From the NCBI RefSeq assembly GCF_003688725.1, contig NZ_REFP01000011.1, positions 62,001 through 126,000 on the forward strand: DNA of 64,000 bases, written 5' to 3'. The notes beneath the pieces are model-generated. The model saw nothing but the letters and a program-made list of their open reading frames with translations, was not told the DNA's origin and ran no database searches. The number at the start of each line of letters is the position of its first letter. The stretch's first letter is position 1. Source of the stretch: Thermoactinomyces vulgaris. Lineage in GTDB: Bacteria > Bacillota > Bacilli > Thermoactinomycetales > Thermoactinomycetaceae. A program made the position numbers and the translations under genes. Below, one piece after another: positions 23,715-30,033 of the stretch.

Positions 23715-23764
23715 GATCATAATGCTCTTGACGGAAAGTGGGATGCACAGAAAGGGGAAAGGTT

Positions 23765-25156
23765 ATGGGAGCCGTCACCCTTCCATATATGGATTTTAAC
23801 AATCAGCAATCAATCAAAAATCTTTTGATTGAACAACAAGGAAGACTCGCCTCAACCATTCATCTGGAAAAGAGCGGATCGGTGGCCGTGTCTGAGCCGG
23901 TTTTGATTTTAAATGATGAAAGACATGTCCAAAGGACAAAAAATCCTTCGGCTTGCCACCGGATCTTAAGGATGCACGGGGTTCCCGTGCATTCCCATCA
24001 TCATCTGGTCTTGCGGGAGTACATGGTCGCTGTTTTCCAAACCAATGTGTTGGCGGTTTATTGTTCCCGTCAACAGGGGGCTTGGCTGGCGGAGCAAAAG
24101 AGGAATTGGAAAAACAGTTTCCGGCGGGTCTCTTTGCAGGATCCGTCGAGGGAAGTGCGGAAAATCAAAGAATGGGCCGTCCGGGCTTTGTATGCGTTGG
24201 GATTGGATTACGGACTGGTGCGACTGGCCGTGGGGCCCAACCGGAAATATTTTGTCCGGCAGGTGGTATGTGATCCCAAGTTAAACAAAGAAATGAAACA
24301 AAGCTTCGTGAAAGCCGTACAGCAATATGTGAAAGAGTGTGTAAATCTTCCGGCCATTCCTTGGAACCAGGTGGTGCTGGGAGCCGATCCGGAGTTTATC
24401 ATGGAAGGAAGGTCCGGGGGATTGCTGATGGCATCCCGATATTTCCCGGTGAAAGGGAGGGTCGGGTGCGATGCGATCTGGATGAACCAAAACCGTTCCT
24501 TAAAGCCGCTTGTGGAGATCCGGCCGGAGCCGACTCCGGATCCGCGCGCACTGGCCATCAACATCTTTAAAGGGTTGTTGTACGCAGCCAAAAAAACAGG
24601 GCGCGCCCCGGCAAAATGGCTGGCCGGCGCATTGCCGCACCATGCTTTCCCGTTGGGAGGGCATATCCACTTCAGCGGTGTTCAACCAAACTTTAAATTG
24701 TTGCGGGCTTTGGACAACTATTTGGCGTTATTTTTGGCAATCGTGGAAGATCCGCAGGGGATCGGGCGCCGTCCCAAGTACGGGTTTTTGGGGGATTTCC
24801 GATATCAGGACCACGGCGGGTTTGAATACCGGACGTTACCCAGTTGGCTGATTTCCCCCACCCTGACCAAAGGGGTCTTTGTCGTGGCCAAGTTGATTGC
24901 CATCCACTACCGGTATTTCAATTATTATCCGCTGGACGAGGAAGACGTCCAAGAAGCGTATTATCAGGGGGATAAAGAGGTGTTGGCCAAGTGGTTGCCC
25001 GTGTTGTGGAGCGAATTGAAGAAGTGCCCTTATTATGGGCGGCACAAGGAATATCTGGATAAATTCTACAAATACCTGACTTCGGGATCGACTTGGAATG
25101 AATCGCAAGATATTCGAAAAGTGTGGAAACTGCCGCCTTACCAGAAGAAAAAATAA
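23765..25156 (+). CDS. Putative COOH-NH2 ligase (amidoligase) domain protein
   Basis: The C-terminal part (about residues 200-400) matches the phage phiEco32-like COOH-NH2 ligase group, related to the glutamine synthetase/gamma-glutamylcysteine ligase fold. It has LGADPEF, EIRPEPTPDPR, GGHIHFSG and FEYRTLPSWL, the acidic and His residues expected to bind metal and ATP. The N-terminal 200 residues are unassigned. The product is 463 aa; ATG at 23765 follows GAAAGGGGAAAGG. It lies between cotE and mutS. A SigK-like promoter suggests mother-cell expression, so a role in modifying a spore peptide or protein is possible but unproven. The substrate is unknown. Confidence 0.7.
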   Translation: MGAVTLPYMDFNNQQSIKNLLIEQQGRLASTIHLEKSGSVAVSEPVLILNDERHVQRTKNPSACHRILRMHGVPVHSHHHLVLREYMVAVFQTNVLAVYCSRQQGAWLAEQKRNWKNSFRRVSLQDPSREVRKIKEWAVRALYALGLDYGLVRLAVGPNRKYFVRQVVCDPKLNKEMKQSFVKAVQQYVKECVNLPAIPWNQVVLGADPEFIMEGRSGGLLMASRYFPVKGRVGCDAIWMNQNRSLKPLVEIRPEPTPDPRALAINIFKGLLYAAKKTGRAPAKWLAGALPHHAFPLGGHIHFSGVQPNFKLLRALDNYLALFLAIVEDPQGIGRRPKYGFLGDFRYQDHGGFEYRTLPSWLISPTLTKGVFVVAKLIAIHYRYFNYYPLDEEDVQEAYYQGDKEVLAKWLPVLWSELKKCPYYGRHKEYLDKFYKYLTSGSTWNESQDIRKVWKLPPYQKKK

Positions 25157-25230: not shown

Positions 25231-25332
25231 TTGGCAAAATATACTCCGATGATTCAGCAATACTTGTCGATCAAGGCACAATATCCGGATGCCTTCTTAT
25301 TTTTTCGTTTAGGTGATTTTTACGAGATGTTT
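25231..25332 (+). CDS. mutS: mutS exon 1 (residues 1-34)
   Basis: The mismatch recognition protein MutS starts here with TTG, 8 bases after ACGGAGG. The first 34 residues end in GDFYEMF, part of the mismatch-contacting N-terminal domain with the conserved Phe-x-Glu element (FYE). The frame then meets a group II intron and a stop three codons later. Exon 2 resumes at 27508 in the same phase and reads FEDAEKA, as in uninterrupted MutS. The joined coding sequence gives 875 aa, near the Bacillus length of about 860. Without splicing only a useless 36-codon peptide would be made. Confidence 0.95.
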
Positions 25333-25900
25333 GTGCGCCCATAAGGACTTATAGGGAATCTGCCCTTGGCAAGGCAGTGGGTGAGGGACGCGGAAAACAC
25401 CCATCATCGACCAACTGATCCGGAGGGGAAACCCGAAGGGGAGTGTAGCATGTTGGTAAAGTCACGAGTCACGAAGCTGCCATCGTGCGACTGAGTGGCG
25501 AGATGAAAGGTTGTGAATGAGGATGAAAGCTGGATTGCTTGAATGACAGCCCGAGCCGGTTGATCGTAGCCCATGGCGGAAGGCAGCTGTATACGCCATG
25601 CAGCCGTGATGATTCGCAGAAAGACATGGCGGTCATCGGTGCGTCCTGCGGCTGGGCAGCCTCTGTCAGAGGAAAAGGGCGAACGTCACATCCGACATCA
25701 CAACGTGCCTGTCTCTATAAGTCTAAATGGGGATCACCTGAGTCGGAATGCCTGCCTGTCGGGCTATGGCCGCAAGGGCCTGAATATCCGATATGGTGAC
25801 GGAGCCCCCGTAGTAGTCTGAGCCGGGGAAAGCCCGGCACACGGCGAAGGGGGGCAGCTTGCTCGGGTTCCATACGACAAAGGAAGAAGCGTGAGGCTTT

Positions 25901-27403
25901 ATGAGAAATCCTGAGTACGTATTGAACAGTCTGGCCGCGAAGTCCGGCGATTCAACCTATTTATTCCAAAGGATTTACCGAAATTTGTATAACCCGCGGT
26001 TTTATCAAAAGGCATATCAGGAACTGATCCGCCGGTTCCCTCAGGTAAGACACCGGAAACTCCTTCCCGGACAGCTGGAATCCCTGATGAAGGAATTGAA
26101 AAACGAAACCTATCAGCCGGCACCCTTTCCCGGCGCCGGGGAGACGGAACCGCTTCGGGATTGCTTGGTGGCATGGATTGTCCGCATGCTTCTCGAGGCG
26201 ATCTATGAGGGTTCTTTTTCGGACTTGTCCCATGGTTATCGTTCTCACCGAAGCTGCCATACCGCTTTGTTGCAAGTAAAGAAAAATTTTTCCGGTGTCA
26301 AATGGTTGCTGCACGGAAGCCTGCATTCTTTTTTCCCTTCCATTTCTTTTGAAGTGCTGCGTTCCCTTCTGAGAAAAAGGATTGAGGATGAAAAATTCAT
26401 CCGGCTCATCAACAAGTTTTTGCGGGCAGGATGGTTAGAGGATTGGCAATTCCACCGCACCTGCAGCGGGGCTCCCGTGGGCGGATGGATCAGCCCGGTT
26501 TTGGCCAATATTTATTTCCATGCGTTGGACCGGCATGTGGAAACGCTGATCCATGAGTTTTCCAAAGGAAAGAAGCGCAGGAGGAATCCGGCTTACGAGA
26601 AGCTTCTTGCCCGTATCAAACAGGTGGAACAAAGAAAAAGGGATGCAGAAAGCGAAGCGGAAAAAGAGAATTTGAACCGGCTGCAACAACAATGGACGGA
26701 ACGGTTGAAACAAATCCCCCGGGAAGATCCGTGGGATCCGGCTTATAAACGGCTCGTGTATACGCGTTATGCCGGGGAGATCTTATTGGGGGTGATCGGT
26801 TCCAAGAAGGAATCCTCAGCCATCGGGGATGAGGTTGTCCGGTTTATAAAACAGGAATTGAATCTTCCTTTTTCCCGCGAAGCACTTATTTTAAAACATG
26901 CCAAAAAACATACGCGTTTTCTCGGATACGACATCACCGTCAAAGAACAGTGCAAACTGCTTTTTCCAAAAGATGTCCGGATCAAAAGACTGCATCAATT
27001 CGGGGCGGTGAAAGAACAAAACGGCAAGCTGAAGCCGGTACATAAGAAGGAACTGGTTCCTCTTCCCGATGCGGAGATTCTGCGCGTTTATAACCGGGAG
27101 ATCCGGCGCATGTACCATTATTACCAATTGGCGGAGAATGTCGGCACTTTGTCACGGTATGCCTATTTGCTGAGATACAGCATGTATAAAACATTGGCCA
27201 TGAAATACAAGTGTTCCGTGCATCAACTCTTGAAGAAGTATATGCATGCGGGGACCTTTCAGGTGCCGGTTGAAACCGGAGACGGGGAAAAAGCGGTTGC
27301 CACATTCCATGACGAAGGGTTTAAGCGCAAGGAAGACCCCGTCTTACATAGCGACGTCGACCGGGTGGATGGATCCGGACCGCCGGACCAAGGCCGGATT
27401 TGA
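25901..27403 (+). CDS. Group II intron maturase with degenerate reverse-transcriptase motifs
   Basis: This 500-aa intron-encoded protein has reverse-transcriptase blocks (HGYRSHRSCHTAL, GAPVGGWISPVLANIY) and a well-preserved domain X maturase region (from YNREIRRMYHYYQLAENV to YSMYKTLAMKY, about residues 388-440). The catalytic box YADD reads YAGE at about residues 289-292, and motif A, normally with Asp before the FFD(N)I segment, reads HGSLHSFFPSI. All three metal-binding aspartates are therefore gone, and Gln of the PQG box is Val. No C-terminal HNH motif follows domain X. The open frame is otherwise intact, implying selection for splicing help only. ATG at 25901 has a weak AAGGAAG site 15 bases upstream. 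The stop is 9 bases before domain V. Confidence 0.92.
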   Translation: MRNPEYVLNSLAAKSGDSTYLFQRIYRNLYNPRFYQKAYQELIRRFPQVRHRKLLPGQLESLMKELKNETYQPAPFPGAGETEPLRDCLVAWIVRMLLEAIYEGSFSDLSHGYRSHRSCHTALLQVKKNFSGVKWLLHGSLHSFFPSISFEVLRSLLRKRIEDEKFIRLINKFLRAGWLEDWQFHRTCSGAPVGGWISPVLANIYFHALDRHVETLIHEFSKGKKRRRNPAYEKLLARIKQVEQRKRDAESEAEKENLNRLQQQWTERLKQIPREDPWDPAYKRLVYTRYAGEILLGVIGSKKESSAIGDEVVRFIKQELNLPFSREALILKHAKKHTRFLGYDITVKEQCKLLFPKDVRIKRLHQFGAVKEQNGKLKPVHKKELVPLPDAEILRVYNREIRRMYHYYQLAENVGTLSRYAYLLRYSMYKTLAMKYKCSVHQLLKKYMHAGTFQVPVETGDGEKAVATFHDEGFKRKEDPVLHSDVDRVDGSGPPDQGRI

Positions 27404-27412
27404 GCAAGCGGA

Positions 27413-27446
27413 GAGCCGTATACGCCGAGAGGTGTACGTACGGTTC
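27413..27446 (+). ncRNA. Group II intron domain V
   Basis: The 34-nt sequence from GAGCCGTA to TACGGTTC folds into an 8-bp lower stem, a 2-base bulge, a 5-bp upper stem and a GAGA tetraloop. It includes the AGC catalytic triad near its 5' end. This is the ribozyme core and looks intact. Confidence 0.92.
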
Positions 27447-27507
27447 GGAGAGGGGTTCAGAGAAACCTGCCGTCAGAAGGCGGCAAGGCGCTTTGTTCCT
27501 ACTCTAC

Positions 27508-30033
27508 TTCGAAGATGCCGAAAAAGCAGCCGAAGAGCTGGAGATTACATTGACCAGCCGGGATGGTGGCAGTGAACGCATTCCCATGTGCGGGGTTCCT
27601 TATCATTCGGCTCACACTTATGTGGAAAAATTGATTGATCAGGGATATAAAGTGGCCATCTGTGAGCAGGTGGAAGATCCTTCCGCTGCCAAAGGGGTGG
27701 TCAAGCGGGAAGTGGTTCGCGTGATCACGCCCGGGACCATCATGGAAGAAAATATGCTGGTCGACCAGGAAAATAATTTTTTGGTGACGCTGACCGGAAG
27801 CGAAAACCAAATGGCATTGGCGGCAGTGGATTTGTCCACGGGAGAGTGCCACATTACGGAGATGAGCGGTTCGCTGGACGCGATTTTGGATGAAATTTCT
27901 TCGTATCGGCCGAAAGAAATCGTGTTGGATGAATCCTTGGCAGATCAAGCGGCGGTAAAAGAACAGATTCAATCCCGCTTAAAATGTTTGATCACGCCGC
28001 ATGGCATGGATGCCGGTTCCGAAAAGAAACTGTCCGAAGAGTTGCCGGCGCAGTTTCCGCAATACCCCGAGCTGTGCGATACCCCGTTTTTGCGAAAAGT
28101 GGTCGCCTTGTTATTCTCTTATCTGAAACAAACGCAAAAGCGGGCTCTGCATCATTTGCAGCGGTTGCACCGGTATGACGCCAGGCAGTATATGATGTTG
28201 GATGAAGCGGCGAGAAGAAACCTGGAATTGACGGCAACGCTTGGCGAAGGAAAGAAAAAAGGTTCGCTATTGTGGCTGTTGGATCAAACGGCCACCGCAA
28301 TGGGGAGCCGGTTGTTGAAAAAATGGCTGGACAAGCCGCTTCTGTCACTGGAAGAGATCACCCGGCGCCAAAATATGGTGGAAGCGTTGCTTTCCGACTT
28401 TTTGTTGCTGGATGAAGTGCGGGACCGGATGAAACAAGTTTATGATTTGGAGCGGCTGGCGGCGCGCATTTCTTACGGATCGGCCAATGCGCGGGATTTA
28501 AACAGTGTGAAAAGATCGCTTTCCATCATTCCCGAACTGAAAGAGAAATTGTTGCAATCCGACTCCCGGCCGCTGAAGGAATTGGCGGAAAAAATGGATG
28601 AGTTGGCGGATGTAAAAAGCCTCATCGACGAAGCGTTGGTGGAAGAAGCGCCGGTTTCCGTCAAGGAAGGCGGCATCATCCGCGAAGGCTTCCATGAAGA
28701 ATTGGACCAATTGCGGAAGATCCAGAAAGACGGGAAAAGCTGGATTGCCGAGCTGGAGCAGAAAGAAAGAGACACGACGGGAATCAAGTCGCTAAAAATC
28801 CGTTATAACCGCGTGTTCGGCTATTATATCGAGGTTACCAAGTCCAATCTGCATCTGGTTCCCAAAGATCGGTACCACCGCAAGCAAACGCTTGCCAATT
28901 CGGAACGGTATATCACGCCGGAATTAAAAGAACGGGAACAGCTCATCTTAAATGCTTCGGAAAAATCAGTGGAACTGGAATATGAACTGTTTACAAAGGT
29001 CCGGGATCAGGTGGCGGACCAGGTTCAACGATTGCAATCTCTGGCCGAACGGGTGGCCGAGTTGGATGTATTGCACGCCTTTGCGCTGATTGCCCAAAAG
29101 TATCAATATGTCCGTCCGAAAGTGCATACAGGCAGTCAGCTGAAAATCAAAGCAGGCCGCCATCCGGTCGTCGAAGCCGTTACCAATACGGGGGAATTTG
29201 TGGCCAATGATGCGGAGTTGGATCAGGAAGACCGCCAAGTCTTATTGGTGACGGGGCCGAACATGGCCGGAAAAAGCACGTACATGAGACAAGTGGCTTT
29301 GATTGTGATTTTAAGCCAGATCGGAAGTTTCGTTCCGGCGGAAGAAGCGGAAATTTCCATTGTGGACCGCGTGTTTACCCGGATCGGGGCGGCGGATGAT
29401 TTGACCGGCGGGCGGAGCACGTTTATGGTGGAGATGTCTGAAACCTGCCATGCCCTGAAGGAGGCCACCCGGAGGAGCTTGATCCTGCTGGACGAAGTGG
29501 GACGAGGAACATCCACTTATGACGGGATGGCTCTCGCGCATGCCATCGTGGAATACATTCATGACCATGTGGGAGCCAAGACGCTGTTTTCCACCCATTA
29601 TCATGAGTTGACAAAACTGGAGGAATCATTGTCCCGGTTGAAGAATGTGCATGCCCAATGCATTGAGCGGAACGGAAAGGTGGTCTTTTTGCACCGGATT
29701 GTCCCGGGAGGGGCGGATCGCAGTTACGGGATTCAGGTGGCCGAGCTGGCCGGGCTGCCGAAAGAAGTGATCACAAGAGCCAAACAGTTGTTGACCGAAT
29801 TGGAAAAAGGCACACCCGCACCTTCAAACACCGGTGCTTCCCCGGATTCGTCGGGGCAGTTGTCCTTGTTCGATCCGTTGGAAATTCAACCGGCAACCAG
29901 GGAGACGGCCGCTTCGTCTTTGACCTCCGAAGAACAAGAAGTTTTGGAGGCCGTCCGCAAGTGGGATTTAATGAATAAGACCCCGTTTGAATGCATGCAG
30001 TTTTTGCATGAGATCAAACAAAAATTAAATTAA
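27508..30033 (+). CDS. mutS: mutS exon 2 (residues 35-875)
   Basis: This exon carries the rest of MutS, which binds mismatches and recruits MutL. It resumes with FEDAEKAAEELEITLTSRDGG. The clamp and lever regions follow. The ATPase domain has Walker A GPNMAGKST at about residues 617-625 of the joined protein, then the DDL..GRSTFMVEM segment, Walker B ILLDEVGRGT and the STHYHEL motif. The length after joining is 875 aa. mutL starts 28 bases after the stop, so they form the usual mutSL unit. Translation from an internal start would lack the mismatch-binding N-terminus, so function depends on intron splicing. Confidence 0.96.
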   Translation, partial: FEDAEKAAEELEITLTSRDGGSERIPMCGVPYHSAHTYVEKLIDQGYKVAICEQVEDPSAAKGVVKREVVRVITPGTIMEENMLVDQENNFLVTLTGSENQMALAAVDLSTGECHITEMSGSLDAILDEISSYRPKEIVLDESLADQAAVKEQIQSRLKCLITPHGMDAGSEKKLSEELPAQFPQYPELCDTPFLRKVVALLFSYLKQTQKRALHHLQRLHRYDARQYMMLDEAARRNLELTATLGEGKKKGSLLWLLDQTATAMGSRLLKKWLDKPLLSLEEITRRQNMVEALLSDFLLLDEVRDRMKQVYDLERLAARISYGSANARDLNSVKRSLSIIPELKEKLLQSDSRPLKELAEKMDELADVKSLIDEALVEEAPVSVKEGGIIREGFHEELDQLRKIQKDGKSWIAELEQKERDTTGIKSLKIRYNRVFGYYIEVTKSNLHLVPKDRYHRKQTLANSERYITPELKEREQLILNASEKSVELEYELFTKVRDQVADQVQRLQSLAERVAELDVLHAFALIAQKYQYVRPKVHTGSQLKIKAGRHPVVEAVTNTGEFVANDAELDQEDRQVLLVTGPNMAGKSTYMRQVALIVILSQIGSFVPAEEAEISIVDRVFTRIGAADDLTGGRSTFMVEMSETCHALKEATRRSLILLDEVGRGTSTYDGMALAHAIVEYIHDHVGAKTLFSTHYHELTKLEESLSRLKNVHAQCIERNGKVVFLHRIVPGGADRSYGIQVAELAGLPKEVITRAKQLLTELEKGTPAPSNTGASPDSSGQLSLFDPLEIQPATRETAASSLTSEEQEVLEAVRKWDLMNKTPFECMQFLHEIKQKLN

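Follow-up and report, generated by a model that had tools for sequence, protein, structure and literature searches.

A group II intron in mutS of Thermoactinomyces vulgaris encodes a protein without reverse transcriptase motifs that is probably retained as a maturase

Introduction

Why should a group II intron in a bacterial housekeeping gene keep a long open reading frame for a protein that has lost the catalytic residues of its reverse transcriptase (RT)? This question is raised by the mutS gene of Thermoactinomyces vulgaris, which lies in the 64,000 nucleotide stretch of DNA analysed here (the window). An earlier note, made from the letters of the window, had proposed that the intron-encoded protein (IEP) is domesticated, that the element cannot retrohome and that selection now acts on the splicing of mutS. 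Loss of the RT motifs together with retention of domain X is the maturase-only state described in a 2015 review (PMC4424553), and the RT activity of such proteins is routinely abolished by changing YADD to YAAA (PMC12590461, PMC3594303). Degenerate IEPs are considered rare in bacteria, with the O.i.I2 intron in radC as the sole known example, and the low numbers were taken to suggest that non-mobile derivatives are short-lived in bacteria, unlike in organelles (Zimmerly and Semper 2015, PMC4424553). Our search for published group II introns in mutS, in soj or in Thermoactinomycetaceae, and for other bacterial maturases without RT activity, which covered few subscription papers, found only O.i.I2.

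Results

The intron separates codons 34 and 35 of mutS and has an intact ribozyme core

The mutS gene is encoded on the forward strand and consists of a first exon of 34 codons (25231-25332, TTG start, ending in GDFYEMF), a group IIA intron of 2175 nt in phase 0 (25333-27507, GTGCGCCC...CCTACTCTAC) and a second exon (27508-30033) which in the spliced frame carries MutS domains I-V in Pfam. The insertion point is located between codons 34 and 35 (EMF|FEDA), and joining the two exons yields a single open MutS frame of 875 amino acids with the junction GDFYEMF|FEDAEKA. The unspliced frame meets a stop at the fourth intron codon (VRP*), that is after codon 37 and just past the mismatch-binding F-x-E motif of MutS; the listed open reading frame 27400-30033 has a spurious, intron-derived N-terminus. 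The neighbourhood of mutS includes the gene for the spore coat protein CotE (Pfam) and, between cotE and mutS, a gene of the COOH.NH2 ligase type 2 family (PF14395, phage phiEco32-like) at 23738-25156.

The intron starts with GTGCG at 25333 and ends with CTAC, both boundaries are identical in six relatives, and the 5´ intron RNA can be aligned with that of relatives along its full length. The Rfam search located ribozyme domains V and VI at 27411-27507 (RF00029, 63.6 bits, 3´ end at 27507), and the hallmarks of group II introns are present: a domain V/VI with the AGC triad, a GUGYG 5´ end and an AY 3´ end. In the alignment of the 5´ intron RNAs, EBS1 (AGACAT, 25622-25627) was read by eye to pair, with one G-U, with the last six bases of exon 1 (ATGTTT), the presumed IBS1; the delta nucleotide A25621 lies directly 5´ of EBS1 (both together 25621-25627) and pairs with T27508. 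The same alignment columns, again read by eye, contain CCATTC in an nrdB intron of genome G019, matching the exon sequence GAATGG, and TTGCAT in a transglycosylase intron of genome G020, matching ATGCAA. The start of domain V, GAGAGCCG, is unchanged in all 14 aligned introns, RT-live and RT-dead alike, and one domain V pair shows compensatory change between U-A, G-C and A-U in these introns. With 63.6 bits the domain V/VI score is close to that of a mobile relative (62.9 bits). Judged by its sequence, the ribozyme core is intact and matches that of the mobile relative, and splicing of the mutS intron is predicted as most likely.

The intron-encoded protein has lost the RT motifs and kept domain X

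The IEP of the window (25901-27403, forward strand) is open for 500 codons, as the earlier note had stated, and starts with MRNPEYVLNSL like its relatives. Among proteins of solved structure its closest relative is LtrA (5g2x, 258.8 bits, E 1e-75; the next match reaches 67 bits), and the order of its Pfam domains, RVT_1 followed by Intron_maturas2, places the RT and X domains as in the LtrA/ML class. Motif losses were scored in alignments with six YADD relatives and with about 50 relatives. The catalytic aspartate of motif A is replaced by serine (S140, 26318-26320; EGDIKGCFDNI in LtrA, HGSLHSFFPSI here) and the YADD box reads YAGE (Y290 A291 G292 E293, 26768-26779), so that both motif C aspartates are gone. 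These substitutions, already reported in the earlier note, are part of a wider loss, since RT1 (RPLGIPS) is deleted, PQGG has become PVGG with loss of the glutamine, and the motif D lysine is replaced by alanine (A328). Thus the three catalytic aspartates, RT1, PQGG and the motif D lysine of an active group II RT are all missing from this protein, while RT2-RT7 can still be aligned. Domain X, the thumb/maturase domain (approximately residues 346-470, 26936-27310), is well kept as described (PF01348, residues 358-474, E 5e-17). An AlphaFold2 model of the protein, made with six relatives, was discarded (mean pLDDT 61, pTM 0.33, fingers/palm below 50).

The absence of an HNH motif was likewise borne out, as Pfam found no such domain in the window IEP; HNH is present in the IEPs of genomes G015 and G014, whose introns occupy the same mutS site. 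The G015 protein is intact, with all three catalytic aspartates, RPLGIPS, PQGG and an AI2M-like_HNH domain (PF21368, E 1e-23). Since this mutS-site protein retains all of these features, the losses seen in the window IEP happened at the mutS site itself.

Intron and gene have diverged together

Another species of the genus (G018) carries an intron at the same mutS position. Its IEP has an intact frame of 475 codons with YGGE in motif C, lacks RT1 and HNH and still has the motif A aspartate. A sequencing artefact in motif C could be rejected, as the separately assembled G018 also has Gly-Glu in an intact frame. Because Gly-Glu is common to both proteins, motif C was lost before the two species separated, and because G018 retains the motif A aspartate, this residue was lost later than motif C.

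Between the two species, the IEP shows a dS of 1.99 and a dN of 0.379, giving a dN/dS of 0.19 (Fisher p 2e-35), and mutS exon 2 shows a dS of 1.91 and a dN/dS of 0.075; the similar dS of IEP and exon indicates that intron and gene diverged together. The 5´ half of the ribozyme is 84% identical. By region, dN/dS was 0.14 for RT0-4, 0.26 for RT5-7 and 0.25 for domain X, and these values, like the overall 0.19, are approximate because synonymous sites are near saturation in this comparison. The earlier note had proposed comparing dN/dS of the RT and X domains: domain X is indeed constrained, but constraint is not confined to it, and a relaxed RT beside a constrained X was rejected, with RT0-4 at least as constrained as X. 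The RT domain thus appears to be still constrained, as would be expected for an RNA-binding surface; maturase function has been reported to need the RT domain as well as domain X (Cui 2004, cited in the review PMC4424553). In neutral simulations with 0.2 random substitutions per site, far less than the divergence of the two species, none of 400 copies kept an open frame, which excludes chance preservation of the reading frame. From these comparisons of sequence, the pattern is one of vertical inheritance under purifying selection after the death of the RT.

The window genome has no second RT, and a mobile form occurs elsewhere at the same site

The genome from which the window is taken (2.56 Mb, 99.99% complete) contains one domain V, one maturase and one RVT_1 match, and searches for families, RNAs and proteins revealed neither a second RT nor a second group II intron; with these single matches, no RT is available in trans. 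The features of a mobile retroelement are missing here: there is no HNH domain, the intron is present in a single copy and its dS equals that of the exons.

Family-wide searches revealed mutS interrupted at the same codon in seven genomes. One of the seven introns encodes a YADD protein and has a fresh second copy (G015, RT-intact), five encode RT-dead proteins (YAND in G014; YADR with a motif A Asn in G017; YADD with a motif A Gly in G020; YGGE in G018; YAGE in the window), and one, the 797-nt intron of G019, is without an open reading frame. The two G015 copies are identical over 2519 nt; one lies in mutS, and the other follows GATGTTT, with the IBS1 common to both, in DNA that contains no long reading frame. 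G014 belongs to the same genus as G015, and between them the IEP dS is 0.23 and the dS of the mutS exons 2.29, which points to a mobile form that spread recently and was then inactivated by a new change. A YADD relative at this site with signs of recent mobility, which the earlier note had regarded as evidence against its reading, therefore does exist, but its IEP belongs to a different clade than that of the window and shows the opposite dS pattern. A single origin of all mutS introns was rejected, since the G017 protein groups with those of the mobile G014/G015 type (100/99), apart from the window clade.

RT-dead IIA proteins are frequent in the order

A second site is found in soj/parA, where introns interrupt the Walker A motif (GGVG|KTTT) in 19 genomes from three families of the order. 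Of their IEPs, 18 are RT-dead and one (G016) has an intact YADD, with the palm of the most divergent ones not confidently alignable; in the shortest (368-393 amino acids) just the N-terminus and domain X are recognisable, resembling MatK. The soj IEPs form one clade (100/100) in which the YADD form is basal and the groups follow genera and families. In congener pairs, dS values of IEP and exon were 0.29 and 0.28, 0.40 and 0.41, 0.44 and 0.36, and 0.47 and 0.40; here dS is unsaturated, and dN/dS of the IEP was 0.20-0.31 (p at most 2.4e-10). Among 399 genomes of the class, the exact junction pattern was found in six for mutS and in 16 for soj, all within this order, and the reversed-pattern control had no match in the same 399 genomes.

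Altogether, 27 of the IIA-type IEPs examined in the order are RT-dead and four RT-intact. In a wider sample of the class nearly all IEPs are intact, a sample which is biased against divergent IEPs because it was cut at E 1e-40. Besides mutS, the genes whose introns encode RT-dead IEPs include soj, nrdB, hup and, outside the order, addA, and their functions share little. Every closely examined genome of the family with a IIA intron keeps at least one related maturase; in G019, the nrdB intron holds an RT-dead relative of the window IEP (YAGD).

A live and a dead form were also found outside the order, in the same addA-like helicase gene of two genomes (L161 in G185, L169 in G194), with YADD in one and YANA plus a motif A Asn in the other.

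Discussion

We consider it very probable that the mutS intron descends from an LtrB-like (IIA) retroelement and has turned into a splicing-only element, with its IEP kept as the maturase that splices mutS. The proposal of the earlier note that the RT was lost and a selected splicing protein retained finds support in the lost motifs, the open frame and the dN/dS of 0.19, and in addition in the equal dS of IEP and exons, the intact ribozyme core and the lack of another RT in the genome. The protein would have no RT or endonuclease function and would be unable to drive retrohoming; contacts to the RNA of its own intron would be made by the RT0-RT4 fingers/palm surface and by domain X, and the bound protein would help the still intact ribozyme to splice the mutS mRNA. 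Since the unspliced message stops after codon 37, expression of mutS should depend on this protein, and loss of the IEP would be expected to abolish mismatch repair.

Could the frame instead be a decaying pseudogene, dead only recently and open by accident, in an intron that splices itself without the IEP? RT, endonuclease and RT1 are already gone, and the mutS intron of G019 does without any open reading frame. But motif C was lost before a split at a dS of about 2, both frames have stayed open since with a dN/dS of 0.19, none of the 400 simulated copies was still open after 0.2 neutral changes per site, and each closely examined family genome with a IIA intron retains a related maturase, so that we regard such decay as very unlikely. 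Cryptic mobility, either by a residual RT activity using other ligands such as E293 or by mobilisation in trans through another RT, could draw on the one acidic residue left in YAGE and on the mobile YADD relative at the same site in another genus. Against this stand the changes in RT1, the motif A aspartate, PQGG, both motif C aspartates, the motif D lysine and HNH, the lack of any other RVT_1, maturase or domain V in the window genome, and an intron divergence that is equal to that of mutS and not smaller; such mobility is scarcely credible.

Recruitment of the IEP for a role other than splicing, for example in repair, as proposed for G2L4 RTs, or in the control of MutS levels, is suggested by the location of the intron in a repair gene and by the domestication of group II-like RTs for repair described in PMC12337344. 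G2L4 proteins, though, are still active RTs while the RT of the window IEP is lost; the maturase domain, EBS/IBS and domains V and VI are all kept, and the same loss recurs in the functionally little related genes soj, nrdB, hup and addA. Such a role thus appears highly improbable.

Two observations do not fit smoothly with the splicing-only element. G018 still carries the motif A aspartate, and the G019 intron at this position of mutS has no ORF, which shows that an IEP in cis is not strictly needed; in G019 the RT-dead protein of the nrdB intron could act in trans. The conversion might have begun when a mobile IIA intron homed into mutS; a point mutation in YADD or in motif A would have come next, then the loss of HNH and RT1 and a long period of retention by selection. 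In one lineage the open reading frame may have been lost once another maturase was present. This order of steps is read from different living lineages and not from within one.

For the order as a whole, we lean towards an organelle-style conversion in which mobile group II introns became, more than once, inherited introns that only splice. It would comprise selected RT-dead cis maturases at mutS and soj, MatK-like remnants and, in G019, G020 and G022, one RT-dead maturase per genome that acts in trans on introns without ORF.

By sequence, the window intron belongs with O.i.I2 and MatK: its RT motifs are lost, domain X is kept and the frame is under purifying selection. O.i.I2 of Oceanobacillus iheyensis is also a bacterial ML-class intron in a repair gene, radC, with an open frame that lacks YADD and other motifs (PMC4424553). 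Whereas O.i.I2 is a single case in one genome, the loss at mutS is common to two species, with measured selection and co-divergence, and RT loss is repeated at several genes across a whole order. MatK, encoded in the chloroplast trnK IIA intron, similarly keeps domain X, has RT motifs that are lost or unalignable and resides in a needed host gene; the short soj proteins resemble it most. Unlike the organellar MatK, which serves several introns, the window IEP still aligns over RT2-RT7 and would have no intron but its own to serve. LtrA of the Lactococcus lactis intron Ll.LtrB has the same domain order and a IIA ribozyme, but its RT is active, it carries an endonuclease domain and its intron is mobile. 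The plant nuclear maturases nMAT1 and nMAT2 were also kept for splicing after intron mobility was lost (PMC4424553); they are encoded apart and act in trans, whereas the window gene remains inside its own intron. The parallel drawn in the earlier note to eukaryotic maturases thus holds, but is not limited to eukaryotes, given the bacterial precedent of O.i.I2.

New are the death of an RT at mutS that is common to two species, apparently selected and vertically inherited, and an order in which RT death is the rule. Non-mobile introns with RT-dead proteins persist in several genera, and those in soj in three families, which argues against the view of the 2015 review. A step in which a selfish retroelement becomes a host-dependent intron is thought to underlie organellar and spliceosomal introns. 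All stages, from mobile to ORF-less, are found at one splice site in mutS of related, presumably culturable bacteria, which makes this step accessible to experiments in bacteria. Structural studies could also draw on the natural RT-free maturases of this order.

Several further introns of these genomes lack a reading frame. A 722-nt intron in the lytic transglycosylase gene of G020 (L125, C6:105380) is without ORF, and the first codons of the lost IEP that remain in it (ATGAGAAATCC...) reveal a deletion. In G022 (C25 43501-47133, C1 95828 and C38 100945; loci L041, L120 and L121), an HU-like gene contains two introns, each with an RT-dead IEP, and a second HU-like gene and recA contain ORF-less introns; a trans-acting maturase for the ORF-less introns of this genome is possible. 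A massive multiplication of introns was observed in G010, a member of the same family whose 2.5-Mb genome has 113 matches to domain V, many of them in introns without ORF that are arranged in tandem at a spacing of about 667 nt (for example C1 1852356-1858163).
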